A stretch of DNA of 64,000 nt, from positions 1-64,000 of the forward strand of contig JAKORG010000053.1 of NCBI GenBank assembly GCA_029777945.1, read 5' to 3'. A program made the translations under genes and the position numbers. Shown piece by piece: positions 1 to 20,747 of the stretch (positions are counted from its first letter, which is position 1; each line of letters begins with the position of its first letter). Under the pieces are notes generated by a model. It was given only the letters and a program-made list of their open reading frames with translations, did not search any database and was not told where the DNA came from. The DNA is from Deltaproteobacteria bacterium. GTDB taxonomy: Bacteria > Desulfobacterota > Syntrophorhabdia > Syntrophorhabdales > Syntrophorhabdaceae.

Positions 1-700
1 ATTGCCTCTTCAAGGGCTTCTATGCAGAAGGATACATCCAGTGTGTTTGATAATCTCCAGGATAATATTTTTCTACTTGCCCAGTCCATAACAGCTACAA
101 GATAACAGAATCCTCTTGCCATAGGAATGTCATATATATCTAAACACCAAAAGGATATACCTTATGGCCGGGATGGGGTTTGGAAAGACGAAGGGACTCA
201 CGTGAATCCTGCCTACTTTATAGCCTTTTTTTTTATCTTCCGTGAACCAAAAGGAATTTCATCTATTAGATGTATAAGCTCTCTATCTTTATCGCTTACC
301 GGGGTAGGCTTATAGTAAATGCTTGAACGGGATATATTGAGTATTGTGCACTGCTTTGTTATAGGCAATTTATGTTTCTTATCGATCATTTTTTTGCACT
401 CGGTTCGTGTTTGGTTTTAAAGCGCTACTCGTTCTCCATGGCAAGCTGCCCTATCCTGGCATGGAGTTCCTTGATATCGGGTTCCTTCTGAGAAGATTTT
501 CCTTTTTCAAAGATTTTCGGTGCTTTTTCTAAAAGAATCTTCTTCCACTCTGTTATCTGATTTACATGCACCTGAAACCTTTCTGATAACTCCACTGATG
601 TCTGATCTTCCTTTAATTGCTTCTAATGCTACTTTTGCCTTAAATGTTGCTTATGTGATTTCTTCTTAGTCTTTTTGTCATTTGTCTACCCCTTTCTGTT
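1..700 (-). mobile_element. Degenerate IS3-family insertion sequence, cut by the left window edge
   Basis: Translating the minus strand gives broken pieces of both IS3 transposase ORFs. At 1-120 it reads GYCYLVAVMDWASRKILSW, a DDE integrase-core segment of OrfB that continues off the window. At about 430-690 it reads OrfA: FKAKVALEAIK, then SERFQVHVNQITEWKK, then EPDIKELHARIGQLAMEN. These pieces lie in different frames and are separated by stops, so the element cannot make an intact transposase. The pseudo-ORF on the plus strand at 127-315 is only the antisense of OrfB. The element's right boundary is uncertain; it may extend to a possible terminal repeat near 775-790. Confidence 0.8.
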
Positions 701-906
701 GTTTATTAGAATGCAGCAAAACACTTATGGCAGTGTATTATTTGTTGTACCATTTCTCTTGCACGGATACTTTTTACTGACCCACTATGGCAAAAAAAGG
801 TAAAAGATAAATAACCGACCATATGATGACATGTAATAATCATGCTCTCAATGCACGGACATGATATTTATAGGAAGAATAACTTTTTTGCTACTACTTA
901 AATATT

Positions 907-924
907 AAAGGTATGCACACCTTT
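907..924. repeat. Near-palindrome AAAGGT-N6-ACCTTT
   Basis: A 6-bp perfect inverted repeat with a 6-bp spacer lies about 80 bases upstream of the promoter of the DUF364 operon. It could be an operator half-site pair or chance. Nothing else is recognisable between the IS remnant and the promoter (about 790-1000). Confidence 0.3.
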
Positions 925-1001
925 AGACAAAAAACTGGCGGATAATGCACAACATCTATGAGTTCACTTTTCATTCATAAATAACACTCTTCAAGAAATC
1001 A

Positions 1002-1031
1002 TTGACAAAGCGTTATATAAAATGATATATA
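1002..1031 (+). promoter_or_regulatory. Sigma70-type promoter of the DUF364-ABC-FmdE operon
   Basis: A perfect -35 hexamer TTGACA (1002-1007), an 18-bp gap and a -10-like TATATA (1026-1031) lie about 110 bases upstream of the first gene. The -10 falls inside the first ModE-like palindrome, so a bound regulator would occlude RNA polymerase. Confidence 0.65.
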
Positions 1032-1059
1032 ACACCATTATATTAATTAATATATAACG
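1011..1059. promoter_or_regulatory. Two tandem ModE-like operator palindromes
   Basis: Site 1 (1011-1034) is CGTTATATA, 6 bases, TATATAACA. Site 2 (1036-1059) is CATTATATT, 6 bases, TATATAACG. Both have the same geometry (9-6-9) and start 25 bp apart. From memory, the ModE (molybdate/tungstate sensor) operator in proteobacteria has CGnTATATA / TATATAnCG-like half-sites. The position over the -10 predicts repression when the oxyanion is plentiful. No modE gene is in this window. Confidence 0.7.
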
Positions 1060-1140
1060 AGGTCAGTAAATTTGTAATATACAAACAGTTTAGTGAGTTT
1101 AAATCATTATTAAAAAAGAAATCTATGAGGAGGTGATATC

Positions 1141-1860
1141 TTGAATCACTACAACATGTTAAAAAAGGAATTGGAAAAAATGGCCACACAAATGTTAGAC
1201 GATACAGTCAATGTTATTTCCTCAAGACCCCTTACCCCTGAAGAGGCAATCGGTAGACCGGACCGCACAGATTTCCCCCTCTTGAAGGGAAAAGAGTTTA
1301 TGATAGAGGCAACGTTTAGAGATGCGAAGGGTCAGGCATTCACAGACATGCCCGGTAATTTCCAGGGCACCCTGCAAGACCTCCTCAGTCTTGAGCTCAA
1401 GAACAATTTTGAGCGGGCTTTATTTATTGCAGGGTTCAATGCAGTCATGCGGTATTTTGGTCGGGTAGCTGATACAATTCATTGTAAAGATAACGAGCCA
1501 AAGGCATGTGCGGAAAAGTTTCACACCTTTATTATGGAGCATTTTAAAAGGCCTAAGATTGCCTTTATCGGATACCAGCCTGCAATGATTGAAAGATTGT
1601 CAGCCTCTTTTGAACTCCGCGTTGTAGACCTTGATAAGGACAATATCAGTGCAAATAGATTCGGTGTGATAATTGAGGGCCCTGAAAGCACTTTAGATGT
1701 TGTTGACTGGAGCGATATCATCCTTGCTACTGGTTCTACCTGCGTAAACAATACCATCGTTAATTTTCTAAATAAAAAACCTGTTATTTTTTATGGGGTG
1801 ACCATCGCAGGTTTTGCCTCTGTTTATGGTTATAAACGTTTCTGTCCATATGGTAGATGA
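1141..1860 (+). CDS. DUF364 (putative heavy-metal chelation) family protein
   Basis: This 239-aa protein starts at TTG, chosen because the strong ribosome site GAGGAGGTGATATC sits immediately upstream. The C-terminal half (about residues 135-239) is a Rossmann-like DUF364 domain: it begins with RPKIAFIGYQP, has an ATGSTCVNNT loop and ends FASVYGYKRFCPYG with a near-terminal Cys. The N-terminal half matches the usual DUF4213-like partner less clearly. DUF364 proteins are proposed, from structure, to bind a small metal-related ligand, but no activity is established. It is the first gene of a run with an ABC transporter and an FmdE-like protein behind ModE-like sites, which suggests handling of Mo/W or an associated pterin. 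A second DUF364 protein lies at 19992-20747. Confidence 0.8.
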   Translation: MNHYNMLKKELEKMATQMLDDTVNVISSRPLTPEEAIGRPDRTDFPLLKGKEFMIEATFRDAKGQAFTDMPGNFQGTLQDLLSLELKNNFERALFIAGFNAVMRYFGRVADTIHCKDNEPKACAEKFHTFIMEHFKRPKIAFIGYQPAMIERLSASFELRVVDLDKDNISANRFGVIIEGPESTLDVVDWSDIILATGSTCVNNTIVNFLNKKPVIFYGVTIAGFASVYGYKRFCPYGR

Positions 1861-1937
1861 AAATCTTAATAAAGAGATAAGTTAAAGGATCATGCTTACG
1901 GATATTATTAAAACTACATAATCGATGGAGAGAAGTT

Positions 1938-2933
1938 ATGAAAAAGCAGATATTATTGTTTTCTGTGGCCTTGATATGTCTTTTTAATATAACTGGTTAT
2001 ACAAAGGAAATTTTTCCCATCAATATCGCTGTAGAATTTACCGACCATGCGGCAAGCGCCTATGTGGCTTTCCATAAAGGATGGTTTGAAGAAGAAGGAA
2101 TAAAGCCGACTTTTTACAGTTATGTCACCGGTATGGCATTGGCCTCAGCCTTGGGCCGCGGAGATATCCAGGCTGCCTATATGTGTCTTTTGCCTGCTAT
2201 AACTGCATATGCTAATGCCAAGGTGCCGATAAAGGTAGTTTCGGGATTACACAAGCACGGCTACGGTCTGGCAGTAAATGCAGAAAAGGTAAAAACCATA
2301 AAGGACTTAGAGAAGCCAGATATTCGTATAGGATGCAACAAAGTAGGTGGACCTGCCAATGCAATAATTCACAAGACTATAGAGAAGTATAATCTTGATC
2401 GAGATAAAATACTGAACAAAATACAAAGGATGAATCCAGCAGCACAGATTATGGCCATCAGGATGGGAAGGCTCGATGCCTTTTTCAACTGTGAACACTG
2501 GCCTGCCATGGCAGAAGACGCTGGATTCAAAATGCTGCTTACAAGCCAGGATGTCTGGCCTGGTATGCAGGGGAGTGTTCTTGTTGTAAGAGAGGAACTA
2601 ATTAAAAACCATCCCGAGATCGTAAAAAAGCTCGTAAAAGTCACCAAAAATTCGATTGAGTGGATAAAAAAGAACCCCCAAGAGGCTGCTTTAATAATGT
2701 CCGAACAACTGCAGATTACAGGTGATAAGAGCTATCCTTCAGATTTACCGAAAGGCGCTCAAAAGCTTAAAGTGACCCCAGAGACGATACTTAGGTCAAT
2801 GGCAAGGATCGAGCATTCCTTCTGTGTTGATAAGGCTGAAGTACAAAAGTCCATAGATTTTGCCAGGCAATACGGCTATATAAAGACCGGTTTCAGCGCC
2901 AAAGATATTCTTGATATGAGGTTTTCTCAATGA
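1938..2933 (+). CDS. ABC transporter substrate-binding protein, SsuA/TauA/NMT1-like
   Basis: 331 aa with a signal peptide (hydrophobic residues 5-20, probable cleavage after TGYT). The fold is the type-II periplasmic binding protein of the nitrate/sulfonate/taurine class: INIAVEF at the mature start, HKGWFEEEGIKPTF, and a GRGDIQAAY stretch typical of the family. Ligand specificity cannot be read from sequence. The context (ModE-like operator, TOBE-type ATPase, FmdE-like and DUF364 partners) points to an oxyanion or metal complex instead of a sulfonate. A ribosome site GGAGAAG precedes the ATG. The stop codon overlaps the permease start (ATGA). Confidence 0.85.
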   Translation: MKKQILLFSVALICLFNITGYTKEIFPINIAVEFTDHAASAYVAFHKGWFEEEGIKPTFYSYVTGMALASALGRGDIQAAYMCLLPAITAYANAKVPIKVVSGLHKHGYGLAVNAEKVKTIKDLEKPDIRIGCNKVGGPANAIIHKTIEKYNLDRDKILNKIQRMNPAAQIMAIRMGRLDAFFNCEHWPAMAEDAGFKMLLTSQDVWPGMQGSVLVVREELIKNHPEIVKKLVKVTKNSIEWIKKNPQEAALIMSEQLQITGDKSYPSDLPKGAQKLKVTPETILRSMARIEHSFCVDKAEVQKSIDFARQYGYIKTGFSAKDILDMRFSQ

Positions 2934-3703
2934 AGAACAAGACCGGGCGGCTCCAGTGGGCCTGGGGTGCTATGCCCGTTATTTTGTTTGTGGTTGTATG
3001 GGAAATCATTGGACGTTTCAATCTTTTTCCAGGTCAGTTTTTCTTCCCTCCCTTTTCAGCAGTTGTGAAAGAGTTTTATGACCTTACAGCAAACGGTATT
3101 CTGGGCAAAAACTTCTTAAGTAGTCTCACAAGGGTGCTGATCGGTCTTTTTGGCGGTTCCATTGCAGGTATTTTTGTAGGCGTTATCATGGGTTGGAAGC
3201 ACATGGTCAATAAGGCCTTAAGCCCCATTATCAGCCTGTTGTATCCCATCCCTGCCTTAGGATGGCTGCCACTTTTGATGCTTTGGATAGGCATAAACGA
3301 GATGCTGCCCATTACCATAATATTTATCTGTTCATTTTTCCCTGTGGTATACAACACCACCACAGGTATCAAAAATGTGGATAAAAGTTATATATACGCT
3401 GCAGAGACATTAGGGGCATCGAATATAATGATACTTTTTAAGGTGATCATACCCCTGGCACTTCCAAATATCTTCACTGGCCTGAGACTGGAGGCCGGTA
3501 TGTCATGGCGGGTTCTTATAGCTGCTGAGATGGTCGCAATCCCCACAGGAATTGGTGCCTTGATGATACAAGCGGAGAGTCTTGTAAGGGTGGATATCAT
3601 AATGGTCTGCCTTATAGTCCTTTCGGTAATGTGTCTTCTCTTTGAAAAAATCTTTGCGCTGGCAGAAAAACATATGGTGGGTAGATGGAGTAGCCATGCC
3701 TGA
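2930..3703 (+). CDS. ABC transporter permease, SsuC/TauC-like
   Basis: 257 aa with about six membrane segments. The cytoplasmic EAA-type loop is at YAAETLGASNIMILFKVIIPLALPN's first half (about residues 163-190), the contact for the ATPase. It overlaps the preceding gene by 4 bases and the following ATPase by 8, so the three are translationally coupled. The family (BPD_transp_1, SsuC/TauC/NrtB branch) normally pairs with SsuA-like binding proteins, as here. Confidence 0.88.
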   Translation: MKNKTGRLQWAWGAMPVILFVVVWEIIGRFNLFPGQFFFPPFSAVVKEFYDLTANGILGKNFLSSLTRVLIGLFGGSIAGIFVGVIMGWKHMVNKALSPIISLLYPIPALGWLPLLMLWIGINEMLPITIIFICSFFPVVYNTTTGIKNVDKSYIYAAETLGASNIMILFKVIIPLALPNIFTGLRLEAGMSWRVLIAAEMVAIPTGIGALMIQAESLVRVDIIMVCLIVLSVMCLLFEKIFALAEKHMVGRWSSHA

Positions 3704-4745
3704 AATCAGGCTTGTTAATGTAAGTAAACATATCTGTAGCGAATTAAATATCACGATCCGAAACAATGAGATATTTGTTATTATAGGGCCAACAGGTTCT
3801 GGCAAAACAACAATACTTAATATCATAGCAGGGGTTACAGATTATAAGGGCAAAGTCTATATTGATGAACAATGCGTTGATGGGGTATCTCCTGGAAAAA
3901 GGAATGTAGGCTACCTGTTTCAGGGCCTTGCACTCTTCCCTCACCTTACTGTCTTTGAGAATATCGCATTTGGTTTAAGGGCTAAAGGCATGAAGGAAGG
4001 GGCTATTAAAGAACGTGTTTTGTCACTTATGGAGATGATGCGTATAAAACACCTCTCAGCTCGCTATCCCCATATGCTCTCCGGTGGTGAGAAAAAAAGG
4101 GTTGCCCTGGCCAGATCTCTGGCGCCATCGCCACAAATACTACTCCTTGATGAGCCAACATCCAGCCTTGATCATCAGACCGCAAAATATCTGCGAGGCG
4201 AAATGATCGACCTCCTTAGGAAACTGAGAATAACGACCGTATATGTAACCCATGATTTAAGGGAGGCAGAGGAGATAGCTGACAGGATTGCTTTAATATT
4301 CCATGGGAAAATAGAACAAATATCAACTCCGAAAGACCTCTTTTTTAATCCCCAAAACGAGAGTGTATCCCAGTTTGTGGGAATGCCTAATATCATAGAA
4401 TGTACCCAATCCCGTATACTCACATCAGGTCTTGTGGAGGTGGTTTCTGGTGAGATGAGGATGATTTTGCCCTATGACGGAGGCAACATCAAAAAGATTG
4501 CCATCCCGCCAGAGGACATCTATATATCCGATGTAAAACCCCCGGGTCCTGCCTTAAACCGCTTTATGGGGAAGGTGGAAGAGATTACACGGTATAATTC
4601 TGCGGTAAGGGTAAAATTATCTACAGGGAATAGGACCCTCCTTGCAGAGCTACCCATAGCCGCCTTCGATGAAATGAACATTGAAGAGGGAAAAGAGGTG
4701 CACGTGGTGATCAAGCTGAGACGATTGCGCTATGTGAAGTCGTAA
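3696..4745 (+). CDS. ABC transporter ATPase with C-terminal TOBE-like (molybdate-type) domain
   Basis: 349 aa from the ATG at 3696, which has a GGAG five bases upstream; an in-frame ATG at 3642 would overlap the permease by 62 bases and is unlikely. Walker A GPTGSGKTT, signature LSGGE, Walker B ILLLDEP and the His-switch VTHD are all present. After the ATPase core (to about residue 235) there is a roughly 110-residue extension ending in GKVEEITRYNSAVRVKLSTG, which resembles a TOBE/MOP-like domain as in ModC-, WtpC- or PotA-type ATPases. SsuB/TauB proteins usually lack such an extension, so this is a hybrid architecture that supports an oxyanion role. Confidence 0.88.
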   Translation: MPEIRLVNVSKHICSELNITIRNNEIFVIIGPTGSGKTTILNIIAGVTDYKGKVYIDEQCVDGVSPGKRNVGYLFQGLALFPHLTVFENIAFGLRAKGMKEGAIKERVLSLMEMMRIKHLSARYPHMLSGGEKKRVALARSLAPSPQILLLDEPTSSLDHQTAKYLRGEMIDLLRKLRITTVYVTHDLREAEEIADRIALIFHGKIEQISTPKDLFFNPQNESVSQFVGMPNIIECTQSRILTSGLVEVVSGEMRMILPYDGGNIKKIAIPPEDIYISDVKPPGPALNRFMGKVEEITRYNSAVRVKLSTGNRTLLAELPIAAFDEMNIEEGKEVHVVIKLRRLRYVKS

Positions 4746-4841
4746 TGGGCTTTCCAGGCGCTGTAAAAAGTCGAAACAATAGGAGATAGGATAATATTTG
4801 GAAAGATTTAAGAAATCAGCTTAAATATAAGGAGGTATAGA

Positions 4842-5795
4842 ATGAAATGTTTTGAATTTTTTAAATTTATCTCTACAAGAAAGACAGAAGGTTTGATTTT
4901 TTTACAGAAAAGATCATATAGAACATGGAGTTTCTTATTCTGTTTTGTCCTCATTGCCACGTTGTTTGTTAGCTTTCATGCCTGGTCAGGCGAACCGGCA
5001 TTCAGACAAGGGGTGGATATATTCATTGAAACCGGCACGGACCAACCCGATAGAGTCCCTACATGGTATGCTCCTATGGTTGCAAGGCCATACGCTCCTG
5101 TATTCGAAATACTTGCCACACGCGGAACACAGGGCAGGTACTATCCATATACATATTCAGTCACTATGAAGGATATCGTCAAGTTTCATGGCCATGATTG
5201 TGAGGGCTTGAGCCATGCCGCTGCATGTGCAAAAGTGGCATTTGATATACTTTTTCCGGACGGGATCATTGATAGAAGTGTATTGTGGGGTATTTCCGGG
5301 ACATCTCCATGCTATAGCGATGTTGTTGCCTTCCTCACAGGGGCACGAATTCAATACGGCAATCTGGGATTCTTCAAAGATAAGAGATATGACCATGCCA
5401 TAATTCTATATCGTGAAGATACCGGTGTTGCCGTCCTCGCCACATGGAAAGAGGGCATAAATAATATACCAGGCGAACCTGTTGTCCTACCCGGAAAAAT
5501 TACATGGAAACCCCAAGTGGATATGGAAGAGGTAAAGCGTCTAAAAGAGGTCGTGAAAAAGGCCAATGGAAAGCCAACACCTTACCAGGTGGATCTGATG
5601 CGCTACTACCAGTGGAAGCATATTAACGATATTTTCAGCCGCCCCCTTGAGGAAAGTTACCAAGCCCAGATAATACAAAATTTCAAATGGACAGACTGGG
5701 TTGATCCGGCAAAAACAATCACCAGAACGCATCAACGTTCGGATATATTGTTGAAAAACTATCCTTATAGAGAAAAACCGGTCTCTTTGAAATAA
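4842..5795 (+). CDS. Secreted or membrane-anchored FmdE-like protein
   Basis: 317 aa. An N-terminal cytoplasmic stretch of about 28 residues is followed by one hydrophobic segment (about 29-47) ending at SFHAWSGEP, so it is exported or anchored. The central part contains the FmdE signature VKFHGHDCEGLSHAAACAKVA (shown here up to position 130-150), where His-Gly-His-x-Cys is the predicted metal site, followed by GTSPCYSDVVAFLTGAR. FmdE was named from the molybdenum formylmethanofuran dehydrogenase operon of methanogens, but the domain occurs widely with Mo/W transport genes. Start ATG with AAGGAGG upstream. It is the last gene of the ModE-box operon. A relic of a related gene lies at 8259-8319. 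Confidence 0.82.
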   Translation: MKCFEFFKFISTRKTEGLIFLQKRSYRTWSFLFCFVLIATLFVSFHAWSGEPAFRQGVDIFIETGTDQPDRVPTWYAPMVARPYAPVFEILATRGTQGRYYPYTYSVTMKDIVKFHGHDCEGLSHAAACAKVAFDILFPDGIIDRSVLWGISGTSPCYSDVVAFLTGARIQYGNLGFFKDKRYDHAIILYREDTGVAVLATWKEGINNIPGEPVVLPGKITWKPQVDMEEVKRLKEVVKKANGKPTPYQVDLMRYYQWKHINDIFSRPLEESYQAQIIQNFKWTDWVDPAKTITRTHQRSDILLKNYPYREKPVSLK

Positions 5796-5805
5796 AATAG
5801 GTAAA

Positions 5806-5845
5806 GTACTATTTTAGCCACCAAAGTTATAAAATAGTGGCTTGA
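5806..5845 (+). terminator. Possible hairpin after the FmdE-like gene
   Basis: CTATTTTA ... TAAAATAG forms an 8-bp A/T-rich stem around a 13-base loop just after the operon's last stop. There is no clear T-run, so it may be the end of the neighbouring IS remnant instead. Confidence 0.35.
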
Positions 5846-5988
5846 AATACAAGAAATGTTCTAAGTGTAATTATACTAAACATTGGACGATAAGAAGAGG
5901 AAAACTTAAGTGCGCAAAGTGTAGATATGAATGGTTTACTCTGATAAATTGCCGCTTAGACTTACAAGAAGGCAATAGCGAAAGATAA
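5842..5988 (+). pseudogene. Fragment of an IS1595/IS1016-like transposase (N-terminal zinc ribbon)
   Basis: A 48-codon open stretch encodes two Cys pairs, KKCSKCNYTKHWTIRRGKL then KCAKCRYEWFTL, the zinc ribbon at the N-terminus of IS1595-type transposases. It stops after the ribbon, and no DDE core follows. It is a truncated mobile-element relic between the FmdE operon and the next IS. Confidence 0.6.
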
Positions 5989-6062
5989 TCAGGGTTTTCG
6001 TGTTGGGACTTTGCAGCAATAAAATTGTTACTGAAACAAAGACTGACAAGAGGAGCAAGGAG

Positions 6063-7260
6063 TTGCCCCCGTCAAACCGGACACCCTTCTAACTTATTTT
6101 GCATATTTCTATACTCCCTCGGTGACATCATCTTAAGCCCCTTGTGGGGATGATTAATATTATAATCTTCAAACCACAAAGGCAATAATTCCATAACAGT
6201 TTTTACAGAAGAAAGATCATGCATATACACATAGTCTCTCTTAAAGGTCTTTATAAAAGCTTCTGCCATACCATTAGATTCAGGACTATAGTATGGGGCC
6301 TCAAATCTCATCATACGGGCAAATGCTATTGTGTCTTTTGCTGTATAGGAAGGGGCATTATCACTTAACCACTGGATCCTGTGAGGGAGTCTATATACTT
6401 TACCAAAACGGTATTCAATGGATTCTGCCATGAGGTCTTTAACTAATTCAGATGTGATTCCACAGGTATTTATAGGAAAGATAAGTTTTGCCTTTTCTCC
6501 ATTATGGCAGAGAATCTCAAAGACATCGGAACACCAGCGCATGTTACTACCGAGAGTTGTAATGGTTCATCATTCATGGGTCCTTAACTGGCTTTCCCGT
6601 ATACCCGGGCAAAAGAATACGGTATACCCTCATATGGTTCACAGTGCTTTCTCCCTTTCCTGTAAGAAACCGGTTTATGAGGGCTATATATCCATAGGCA
6701 GGCCTGTTGTCTATAATCTGCCTGATGAGGGGGAGATATTTTGCATCATCAGGATGGGGTTTATATCTTTTCCTTTTTTTCTACCCCTCGTGTACTGGTT
6801 CGACCTGGTTACCTGTAATGTATCGGTTATACGCTTCATGGGGTAGATGCGATATCAGTTTTTTTCACGGGCTTTTCCTTAATATCTCTACCTCCATGGT
6901 CTTCTTCCCTAAAAGGCGCTCAAGCTCATGGATTTGCTTCCTAAGATTCTTCACTTGAGACAGCCAGAAGGGCACCTTCATGGATAAGGCGTCTCCATCT
7001 GAAGAGCTGATCGGGATGTACCTCATACTTTTTTGCTACCGATGAGATGCTGTTTCCTGGCTGCTTGAGCTTCTTCTACCATGGCTTTCTTCTTATGTGC
7101 TGACCAACGCCTTCTTCTCTTACCCGATGTAATGACCTCTACCGGACTCATAGTTTTTCCCTCCTCTTATCTCTTAATTATAGTAATAATTCTATGGCTA
7201 TCCCGCTTTTGCGGGACAACTTATTTTGGTTAGGAGGGTGTATGGTTAAAACGGGGGCTA
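6063..7260 (-). mobile_element. IS3-family (IS2-group) insertion sequence with terminal inverted repeats, frameshifted
   Basis: The left end reads TTGCCCCCGTCAAACC and the right end, on the opposite strand, TAGCCCCCGTTTTAACC; both are followed by a further (A)CACCC(T)(T/C)CT match, so the roughly 1.2-kb element is complete at both ends. OrfA (about 6850-7150) reads RRRRWSAHKKKAMVEEAQ, then in other frames KKYEVHPDQLFRWRRLIHEG and RELE/LLGKKTMEVEIL-type IS2 OrfA motifs. OrfB is open only at 6072-6542. Several frameshifts make it inactive. No clear target-site duplication was found. Confidence 0.82.
6072..6542 (-). pseudogene. IS2-group transposase OrfB, C-terminal part
   Basis: A 156-residue open frame covers the end of the integrase core: HRIQWLSDNAPSYTAKDT (second catalytic Asp region), SPESNGMAEAFIKTFKRDYV (third motif with the catalytic Glu), and the closing NHPHKGLKMMSPREY. 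The upstream part with the first Asp (6543-6850) is in other frames, so this is the tail of a broken gene. Confidence 0.8.
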
Positions 7261-7284
7261 GTACAAAGAAGGTATTAATAACTT

Positions 7285-7833
7285 GATGAAAAGATGGTGC
7301 TATGTCTTTTTATTCATTATATATTTATTTTTGCCAGCCTTTTGAATTGCTGAGACCAATAGGTTTATTTTAAAGGCAAGCACCATTGGACCCATTGATT
7401 CAAGGATTGTAGATGTCCGCGAGGATGCCTTTGAAAGGGAGACCGGTATAAGGGTGCGTCATGCAGGGGCAGGAACAGGAACTGACCTCAATATTGCCAG
7501 AAAAGGGGATGTGGACCTTGTGATGGTCCATGCCAGACCCTTTGAAAAGAAGTTTGTAAATGAAGGATTTGGCACAGAAAGGATTGACCTTATGTATAAT
7601 GACTTTGTAATTGTTGATCCTAACTCTGATCCTGCCGGAATTAAGGGCATAAAAAAGGTGAAAGAAGCGCTTAAAAGGGTATCCAATACTGAAGTCCCTT
7701 TTATAAGCCGTGGAGACAGATCAGGGACCCGTGTAGCAGAAATGGCTCTGTGGGAGAAAGCCGGAATCAAACCATCGGGTGCCCGGTACGTAGTGTATGA
7801 AAAAGAAGTTGAAGACAATGTAGTATGTTCTAT
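7285..7833 (+). pseudogene. tupA: Tungstate-binding protein tupA, truncated and interrupted
   Basis: Reading from ATG 7285 gives a signal peptide, MKRWCYVFLFIIYLFLPAF, then an in-frame TGA, then the mature protein in the same frame. Family hallmarks of TupA (periplasmic tungstate-binding protein of TupABC) are present: KGDVDLVMVHARPFEKKFV, YNDFVIVDPNSDPAGI, and ISRGDRSGTRVAEMALW. The gene stops being TupA-like at about 7833, where a REP-associated transposase element begins, so the C-terminal third is missing. The IS2-type element ends 24 bases upstream of the start and has probably removed its promoter. No tupB or tupC remains nearby. The TGA sits in the signal peptide, where selenocysteine would make no sense. 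Confidence 0.85.
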
Positions 7834-8258
7834 GGGGTCAGGTCTTGAAATATCAAATTTTCTTTGTATGTTTTGAAAGCCCTTCATTCTTGATCACCTT
7901 GCTGACCGTAGTATAATGAATCCCTAAATATTTGGAAATCTCATTCAGCTTATAACCATATTTTACATGAGCCACGTAAATACCCCTATATCCCTTTTCT
8001 TATTCCCCCTGCCAATATGTCCGCCAACCCAGGTCTGCTTAAATAATGTTGTATTCCTGGAATTTCTTTAATCTGGTCCTTACCTTGTAACAGCTCTCTG
8101 CATCTCTCAATAAAGGTCTCGTTGCCTAACAAAATCTGACCTTGAAGCCTATTCCAAGGCGAATCTGAATTTATTCCCTCTTCCACAAATCTACAATAAA
8201 GCTTTTGCGCTTCCGCTTCGCTCTTGCTGAAATGCCCAAGAATCCAGTTCGTCGTTAA
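7834..8258 (-). pseudogene. REP-associated tyrosine transposase (Y1_Tnp) remnant, C-terminal half
   Basis: The minus strand encodes FVEEGINSDSPWNRLQGQIL, then LGNETFIERCRELL and an EIPGIQHYLSRPGLADIL stretch, and after a frameshift the C-terminal helix-turn-helix GYKLNEISKYLGIHYTTVS. This is the C-terminal region of RAYT/TnpA-REP transposases of the IS200/IS605 superfamily. The N-terminal catalytic HUH/Tyr domain is missing. The left boundary GGGGTCAGGTCTTGA is a typical end of such elements. The insertion truncated tupA. Confidence 0.75.
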
Positions 8259-8319
8259 AAAACAAAGATCACATAGTCCATGGAGTATTATATTCTATTT
8301 TGTCATCATGGCCATTTAA
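8259..8319 (+). pseudogene. Relic of a second fmdE-like gene (signal-anchor region only)
   Basis: The plus strand encodes KQRSHSPWSIIFYFVIMAI then a stop. This aligns residue by residue with the membrane-anchor region of the intact FmdE-like protein at 4842-5795 (QKRSYRTWSFLFCFVLIAT), and the DNA is similar as well. It is too short to function and ends where the porin-like gene region begins. It indicates a duplication of the 1.1-5.8 kb cassette, or of its last gene, before IS damage. Confidence 0.6.
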
Positions 8320-8359
8320 CTTTTTTGTATTCCTGTTAGATCAGATGAGCCGATTTTCT

Positions 8360-9157
8360 TTAAAATCTGAAGGCTATCCCTCCAAGGAAGGCGACATCGG
8401 TTTCTGGTTTATTAAGCCCAGCCTTGACACCAAAATCAATATCAATGTTTTTTGATACCGAATAAATGACCCCACCTAAAATAAAGGCAGGATGTGTATT
8501 TGATGCCTTTTCCGAATTTCTCTCTATCCCCATATCATAAACAAGCTTCAGGTTCTTTATTACCTCCAACTCCGATGCAATGGATACATGCCATATGTCT
8601 TTTCTGTTTGCTTCTTTATCTTCCCTAAGCTTGTATCCATTTCTCGTATATCCAGCATTAAGATGAAATGCCCACATCCCTATTTCTTTTGTTGAAATAA
8701 AAGTCAGGCCAAAAGATGGTCTGCCGCTGCCAAGACCTTTTTCTTCTTCTCCTGTGGGGAAGGTAATACCTGGCTTTAAAGCAAAACTAAAACCATCTTT
8801 TTCGTAAAACCTCCATTTAACTTCTAACGATAAATCAGATATTCCCCTTTCCTTAGCAACTAATTCACTGTCTTTTTCCACTCTAAACCACTTATAGGGC
8901 ATACCAAGGACAATATCAATATTGTCCAAAATTCCATAGGAAAAAATCGTTGCTATCTCCCAACCTATCTCTTTTATCTTTACCCCCTCCTCTCTATTTT
9001 TGTCATAGCTAAATTCACAATTTGCCTCAACCTGAAATTTTCCCTTCCCCTGTGTGCCTGTGTCATCGGTAATCAAGGGATGGGCAGCAAAGACTATCGT
9101 TGAATAAATAACCATGGCAATTAACATACAGAAATAGATTAATCCTCTTCTAATCAT
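8360..9157 (-). CDS. Outer-membrane beta-barrel protein (Phenol_MetA_deg-like), feo operon
   Basis: 265 aa with a signal peptide (hydrophobic residues 7-23, cleavage near VFAAHP). The mature protein begins HPLITDDTGTQGKGKFQVEA and then alternates short hydrophobic strands through to a C-terminal FRF, typical of a 12-or-so-stranded outer-membrane barrel ending in Phe. The LITDDT..QG.G..Q.E pattern matches the 'MetA-pathway of phenol degradation' transporter-like family. It lies 25 bases after feoB on the same strand, so it may carry iron or an iron complex across the outer membrane, but the substrate is not shown by the sequence. Confidence 0.75.
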   Translation of the reverse strand: MIRRGLIYFCMLIAMVIYSTIVFAAHPLITDDTGTQGKGKFQVEANCEFSYDKNREEGVKIKEIGWEIATIFSYGILDNIDIVLGMPYKWFRVEKDSELVAKERGISDLSLEVKWRFYEKDGFSFALKPGITFPTGEEEKGLGSGRPSFGLTFISTKEIGMWAFHLNAGYTRNGYKLREDKEANRKDIWHVSIASELEVIKNLKLVYDMGIERNSEKASNTHPAFILGGVIYSVSKNIDIDFGVKAGLNKPETDVAFLGGIAFRF

Positions 9158-19991: not shown

Positions 19992-20747
19992 ATGAAGATA
20001 CTGGAAGACATCATAAAGAGTTTAAAAGATGATGCACCTGTAAAAGAGGTGAGAAAAGGTATCTTCTGGACCGCTATTGTAAGTAAACACTGTGGACTTG
20101 CCTCCACCATGATGTATGAATCCTGTTTTCAGGAAAACAACGATACCCCTAACCCTCCTTCGTTTACAGAAAAAACAGCCTTAGAGCTTGCACAACTGGT
20201 CTTTTCTAACAACATCTCCAATGCATCCTTAGGACTTGCCGCAATAAATTCATTACTTGACATTGATGAATCACGCTGTTTTGATATAAACGCAGGGGAA
20301 CTACTGATCCGTTTAGGGGCAGGTAAAAATGTTTCTGTTATAGGCCACTTCCCATTCAGTGAAGAGTTGCGCAGGGTAACAAAGAACCTTTGGATTATTG
20401 AAAAAAGGTTAAAACCTGGTGATTATCCGGAAAAGGATGCAGACACCTATCTACCCCGCTCGGATATCATTGCCATATCCAGCATAACACTTATCAACCA
20501 TACCATTACAAACATCTTGAACCTCTGTCCTGAAAGGAGTATAAAGATATTACTTGGCCCATCTACACCAATGAGTACAGTTCTATTTGATTATGGGATT
20601 AATGTAATATCGGGCTGTGAGGTTATTGATGATAAAAAGGCCCTTAAATATATCGGTGAAGGAGCCAATTTTAGACAGTTAAAGAGAACTGGTGCAATAA
20701 GATTAATCACAGTAACAAAAAATGATACAATGTTAAAGGGAGTATGA
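19992..20747 (+). CDS. DUF4213-DUF364 family protein (putative heavy-metal chelation)
   Basis: 251 aa. The N-terminal part (to about 100) is the enolase-N-like DUF4213 domain, including KGIFWTAIVSKHCGLASTMM and SLGLAAINSLL; the C-terminal part is the Rossmann-like DUF364 domain with GKNVSVIGHFPF, DIIAISSITLINHTI and LGPSTPMSTVLFDYG. It is the second DUF364 protein of the window and a fuller match than the one at 1141. Overlaps the iscU-like gene (ATGA). Likely related to a metal or cofactor ligand; activity unknown. Confidence 0.85.
   Translation: MKILEDIIKSLKDDAPVKEVRKGIFWTAIVSKHCGLASTMMYESCFQENNDTPNPPSFTEKTALELAQLVFSNNISNASLGLAAINSLLDIDESRCFDINAGELLIRLGAGKNVSVIGHFPFSEELRRVTKNLWIIEKRLKPGDYPEKDADTYLPRSDIIAISSITLINHTITNILNLCPERSIKILLGPSTPMSTVLFDYGINVISGCEVIDDKKALKYIGEGANFRQLKRTGAIRLITVTKNDTMLKGV

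Follow-up and report, generated by a model that had tools for sequence, protein, structure and literature searches.

A double ModE-type operator before a five-gene operon that encodes a candidate molybdenum importer on a taurine-type transporter scaffold

The molybdate and tungstate importers ModABC, WtpABC and TupABC, together with the taurine, sulfonate and nitrate importers TauABC, SsuABC and NrtABC, are the described systems with which the operon presented here can best be compared. ModABC is controlled by ModE. In Escherichia coli, the ModE operator of modA and other promoters is a 9-6-9 palindrome with the consensus ATCGNTATATA-N6-TATATANCGAT (PMC545781), at which the repressor lies over the -10 element, and ModE itself is of the two-domain type, in which C-terminal TOBE/Mop domains bind molybdate. 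Single-domain ModE proteins are known in Desulfovibrio, and the way in which they sense Mo has already been termed unclear (PMC545781). In addition, several known users of Mo or W are without any annotated Mod, Tup or Wtp transporter (PMC9246946). The operon discussed here is located in a window of 64,000 nucleotides (the whole stretch of DNA that was analysed) and probably encodes a ModE-repressed, high-affinity importer of molybdate or another Mo species, built on the TauT rather than on the Mod, Tup or Wtp scaffold. The features of the promoter, the operator and the operon are listed in Table 1.

Table 1. Promoter elements, operator boxes and genes of the operon in the window.
Feature	Position	Strand	Evidence
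-35 hexamer TTGACA	1002..1007	+	Direct sequence; TTGAC at the same distance from box 1 in L051, L052, L053, L054 and L055
-10-like hexamer TATATA	1026..1031	+	N18 after the -35; inside the right arm of box 1; position kept in orthologues
ModE-type operator box 1, CGTTATATAAAATGATATATAACA	1011..1034	+	1/18 mismatches; matrix score 25.5 bits; conserved in orthologous operons
ModE-type operator box 2, CATTATATTAATTAATATATAACG	1036..1059	+	2/18 mismatches; matrix score 19.4 bits; second box also in L051, L053, L054 and L055
DUF364 protein, 239 aa, putative heavy-metal chelation family	1141..1860	+	PF04016, 6.5e-8, over cut-off
Exported substrate-binding protein, NMT1/TauA/SsuA fold, 331 aa	1938..2933	+	PF13379, PF09084; AF2 model
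ABC permease, TauC/SsuC/NtrB type, 257 aa	2930..3703	+	PF00528; NCBIfam matches all below cut-off
ABC ATPase with C-terminal TOBE, ModC/WtpC-like, 349 aa	3696..4745	+	PF00005 and PF03459
FmdE-family protein, N-terminal hydrophobic stretch, 317 aa	4842..5795	+	PF02663, 1.6e-9; HxHxC metal motif, residues 116-120

The original prediction had described two adjacent 9-6-9 palindromes, the first of which overlaps the -10 of a TTGACA-N18-TATATA promoter, and a direct reading of the sequence confirms both statements at the exact positions given in Table 1. Box 1 is composed of CGTTATATA-AAATGA-TATATAACA and box 2 of CATTATATT-AATTAA-TATATAACG, with their centres 25 bp apart. The palindrome geometry, the half-sites and the position over the -10 are those of the E. 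coli operator, whereas the presence of two adjacent boxes is a difference. Measured against CGTTATATA-N6-TATATAACG, as in Table 1, every other place in the 64 kb has at least five mismatches, and when the surrounding, AT-rich 280 bp were re-drawn 5000 times with an order-1 Markov model, two or fewer mismatches never occurred. A scoring matrix was trained only on 18 boxes located 5' of modA or tupA in relatives, which score 23-32 bits; both boxes fall inside or near this range, while the next site in the window scores 7.4 bits and the top score over 30 Markov-redrawn 64-kb windows is 15.6. A chance AT-rich palindrome is ruled out by these re-draws and the matrix. The -10 is weak compared to TATAAT (TATATA without the final T) and is absent from a strict sigma-70 scan list; nevertheless, the TTGAC...TATATAA spacing is preserved in orthologues. 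No Rfam match to a Moco or Tuco riboswitch, as a possible Mo sensor, was found in positions 1-9000 of the window.

The search of the whole genome (2.4 Mb) was performed by pattern, allowing up to two mismatches to CGNTATATA-N6-TATATANCG, and returned only boxes 1 and 2 and an intragenic site at C31:17870. A second perfect TTATATA-N6-TATATAA place (C84:53189) lies within the predicted frame of an HtpX-like peptidase, scores only 15.3 and was not counted. The genome's own modA carries a weaker box of 11.8 bits, about 20 bp before its ATG, and the operon is apparently the best ModE target of this host. In a set of 99 genomes, consisting of the window's own genome and relatives, the same pattern with at most one mismatch gave 36 sites in 24 genomes, compared to 4 sites for a reversed-pattern control. 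Half of these sites (18 of 36) could be assigned by coordinates, using ModA, TupA and ModE searches, to a position 5' of modA or tupA, usually with a distance of about 150-180 bp to the conserved part of modA; three of the 18 are located between divergent modA and modE genes. Other boxes of this quality are found before a small TOBE protein with a ModC-like ATPase behind it (L098) and before a solitary DUF364 gene (L099). The motif is therefore taken to be the ModE box of this lineage.

The operator is also conserved before orthologous operons (L051, L052, L053, L054 and L055, with single boxes in L061 and L062), of which the nearest have both boxes. The promoters of the orthologues in G012 (two copies), G037, G021 and G030, all relatives, retain TTGAC, the box that bears the -10 and a second box 26 bp further on (this distance is found in L051, L053, L054 and L055), while the flanks of the operators have diverged. 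The best box scores for G012 (two copies), G037, G021 and G030 are 30.4/22.0, 19.3/14.7, 13.4 and 10.7, and the first box of G030 is eroded. The G012 loci (L054/L055) and L144/L147 belong to the same MAG, which was counted once. In G040 and G044, from another family, one box is located before an operon that starts with the ATPase gene. In total, a box is present in 7 of the 9 orthologue-bearing genomes that have a ModE and in none of the 4 that do not (Fisher p 0.02; n=13). In distant lineages the boxes score 11-17, which is near the chance level for 600 kb of sequence, and what would favour them as operators is solely that they lie between modE and the transporter. In five loci of the Dehalococcoidia type and of Deltaproteobacteria (L149, L150, L163, L171 and L177), the box found between these two is a variant, CGCTATATC-N6-GATATAGCC, which perhaps reflects a shifted ModE specificity.

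The genome encodes one ModE homologue, a protein of 132 aa (C14:45978; TIGR00637, E 2.7e-18) that scores 67 bits, below the curated cut-off of 98.5. It consists of the winged-helix DNA-binding domain only, without the C-terminal molybdate-binding domains of the E. coli protein, and its relatives beside homologous operons are also short (111-130 aa). A profile of this ModE and its operon-linked relatives matches the E. coli ModE structures 1b9m and 1o7l and the short protein 2ijl in the PDB. Judged by sequence, the gene is clustered with mocA-, moeA-, yqeB- and xdhC-like genes. TOBE domains are found in only three proteins of the genome, which are all ABC ATPases (ModC, TupC and the ATPase of the operon), and a separate Mop protein was not detected. 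The lack of both possible Mo sensors, a molybdate-binding domain on ModE and a separate Mop protein, was counted against the importer reading. It may be speculated that the single-domain ModE receives its Mo signal by interacting with a TOBE-bearing ATPase. In a relative (L098), the small TOBE protein (1046-1495) starts 17 bp after the ModE box and is encoded 5' of the ModC-like ATPase; this protein is a candidate for a separate Mo sensor of a single-domain ModE.

The lack of a Mo-binding domain, the AT-rich promoter and the different box that has been assigned to the single-domain ModEs of Desulfovibrio, CGGTCACG-N14-CGTGACCG (PMC545781), could all suggest that the palindromes are the site of another regulator or a chance symmetry. 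This explanation is very improbable, since chance is excluded by the Markov re-draws and the matrix, promoters of modA, tupA and modE in the family carry this box too, and boxes are missing where ModE is missing. The three points named beforehand, namely a ModE homologue in the genome, copies of the motif before Mo/W genes and palindromes conserved before orthologous operons, all came out in favour of a ModE-like operator, although ModE is below its cut-off, the copies before modA/tupA are those of relatives and the genome's own modA has the weaker one.

The genes of the operon combine parts of different known importers. The binding protein and the permease, which is a BPD_transp_1 permease of the TauC kind, have the composition of a TauT-type importer. 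The AF2 model of the binding protein (pLDDT 88) has TauA (6ssy) as its best PDB match and is predicted to be nearest to TauA, SsuA and thiamin-precursor binders, not to ModA. In line with this, the ModA model matches only C52 in the genome, and the TupA model NF041772 matches only C84 and a remnant downstream of the operon. The best NCBIfam matches of the permease are SaoP, TauC and SsuC, all of which are sub-cut-off (119-137 bits for the TauC/SsuC types), and against ModB (TIGR02141) it scores 24.7 bits with a cut-off of 182.6. The binding protein and the permease also have the SaoXPA families (NF040735, NF040733 and NF040729) among their best sub-threshold matches; the scores, 86 of 300 and 149 of 295 bits, are far under the curated thresholds. 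The operon therefore shares the binding-protein fold and the permease family with TauABC, SsuABC and NrtABC, and differs from them in its TOBE-bearing ATPase, its ModE operator and its Mo gene neighbourhoods.

In contrast to the other two components, the ATPase resembles those of Mo and W importers. It shares 52.9% identity with the genome's ModC and 31.6% with its TupC, and it scores 200 of 285 bits against ModC (TIGR02142). Its best NCBIfam match is WtpC, at 302 bits and thus below the cut-off of 440. The proposed ModE control and the likeness of this ATPase to ModC connect the operon with ModABC, from which it is set apart by the binding-protein fold, the permease type and the additional DUF364 and FmdE genes. 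Similarly, the same functional class as WtpABC and TupABC is proposed, while the binding protein and permease are of unrelated families. That these two proteins appear unrelated to Mod, Tup and Wtp at the family level was counted against the importer reading. The flanking genes have metal-related precedents: FmdE structures bind metal via His-x-His-x-Cys and a further Cys, FmdE genes are commonly located next to metal transporters (PMC2954224), and DUF364 genes have been described beside genes for Mo, W and V transport (PMC2954201).

A single scan across GTDB genomes recovered 80 homologous loci. They belong to Deltaproteobacteria, Dehalococcoidia, Atribacterota, Omnitrophota, Auribacterota, Spirochaetes, Elusimicrobia and one Caldarchaeales archaeon. 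A Mo gene (modE, modABC, mocA/moeA, xdhC/yqeBC or nifB/EN/V) is present within 6 kb in 44 of the 80, whereas a rough chance expectation of 3-4% per locus corresponds to 3 loci. Almost half of the loci have no Mo gene in the available flank, partly due to contig ends. A DUF364 gene lies beside the binding-protein gene in 47 of the 80 loci; modE is a neighbour in 18, mocA-type genes in 15, moeA-type genes in 13, xdhC in 9, yqeB in 8 and yqeC in 5, and about 10 have nif genes nearby, with nifB above its cut-off and nifN- and nifV-like genes. None of 17 paralogous NMT1 binding-protein loci has a modE, and only one has a box. In a Desulfomonilaceae MAG (L145, 259-8192), the whole five-gene cassette is inserted between modA and modBC on one strand, and in L164 it is located 3' of modABC. 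These neighbourhoods, as far as gene content can tell, argue for Mo as the candidate substrate and not for taurine, sulfonate or nitrate. The operator had been proposed as the best evidence for the substrate class of the operon; it does count as evidence, but not as the sole evidence, since the TOBE-bearing ATPase is ModC-like and the neighbourhoods are at least as strong an argument. The transporter is located among nif genes (nifB, nifEN-like and nifV) in Omnitrophota, Auribacterota, Clostridia and Smithella MAGs (L176, L181, L184, L189, L192 and L197).

With the same operator and importer, the substrate might also be tungstate, or Mo and W without preference, which is considered unlikely. 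WtpC as the top match of the ATPase, the broken tupA 1.5 kb 3' of the operon, a ModE box before tupA in a relative and a homologue in a Caldarchaeales MAG (L198), from a lineage that is reported to be W-dependent (PMC9246946), fit this possibility. However, the ATPase is far closer to the host's own ModC than to TupC, and AOR genes are absent from the recurrent neighbour clusters of the homologous loci. Mo is favoured over W because the recurrent neighbours are Mo-specific, comprising FeMo-co genes (nifB, nifEN-like and nifV) and Mo-hydroxylase maturation genes (yqeB, yqeC, xdhC and mocA).

Even less probable is a cargo other than Mo or W that would be useful under Mo scarcity, for example vanadate, iron, or a sulfur or nitrogen source, taken up under ModE control. 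The binding protein shares its fold with binders of taurine, sulfonate, nitrate and pyrimidine, and there is the precedent of a binding protein annotated as phosphonate-type that proved to bind vanadate (PMC3223731). On the other hand, the ModC-type ATPase with its TOBE domain, the linkage to Moco and nif genes and the cassette inside modABC in L145 all speak for Mo.

The host already has modABC and tupABC (with intact tupA copies at G000:C84), which was also counted against the importer reading. Its genome has 6 molybdopterin-family matches and about 8 Mo-hydroxylases, which suggests a heavy Mo user in which the operon would be an additional importer. Three other genomes, G040 (97% complete), G055 (98%) and G094 (92%), carry the transporter and 5-7 molybdopterin-enzyme matches, and searches with ModA and TupA models gave no match in them. 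This is a lead that the transporter may fill the Mo need there. The transporter is present in 3 of the 11 genomes without ModA and TupA and in 10 of the 88 others, an enrichment that is weak, was judged by eye and was not used as proof.

In the proposed mechanism for Mo import, ModE would bind the double operator and shut off the five-gene operon when Mo is sufficient. With one dimer on box 1 and another on box 2, the -10 and the start-site region, respectively, would be covered and RNA polymerase excluded; the position of the boxes suggests this occlusion of -10 and start. When Mo is scarce, the operon would be expressed, and the TauA/SsuA-type binding protein, the TauC-type permease and the ModC-type ATPase would form an importer for which a Mo species is suggested by the gene linkage and the ModC-like ATPase. 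The TOBE domain of the ATPase probably senses the imported anion, and TOBE-mediated inhibition of transport is established for other Mo transporters. The cytoplasmic DUF364 protein and the apparently exported FmdE-like protein may act as metal-handling accessories. A more far-reaching and rather doubtful idea is that the family takes up complexed or thiolated Mo (thiomolybdate or a Mo chelate) of sulfidic water, with exported FmdE and cytoplasmic DUF364 handling the metal, that it is widespread in anaerobes, and that it is the main Mo supply where Mod and Tup are missing.

In a limited open-access set of the literature, no description was found of DUF364 together with FmdE, or of a taurine/NMT1-type molybdate transporter. 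As an element, the operator is of a common type; what it marks is a candidate importer class for which the literature searched gave no description. A ModE-controlled importer on the TauT scaffold is a concrete candidate for the gap of missing transporters (PMC9246946), and its linkage to Moco, Mo-hydroxylase and nif genes spans Deltaproteobacteria, Chloroflexota, Atribacterota, Omnitrophota and others. The orphan families DUF364 and FmdE gain a testable role, and many annotations as taurine, nitrate or sulfonate transporters in anaerobes may be wrong. In a relative (L099), a solitary DUF364 gene follows directly behind a ModE box.

The remainder of the window contains a second DUF364/DUF4213 gene (19992-20747), by a NifU-like gene and Mrp-type ATPases and without a ModE box. 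The operon is flanked by fragments of two different IS3-type transposases (1-780 and 6072-7180, with rve_3 in the right one). A composite transposon was considered on account of these fragments and rejected, as the flanks have no shared DNA similarity. The tupA remnant (7310-7876) is a truncated gene for a tungstate-binding protein, with 65% identity to the genome's TupA across the stretch that matches.
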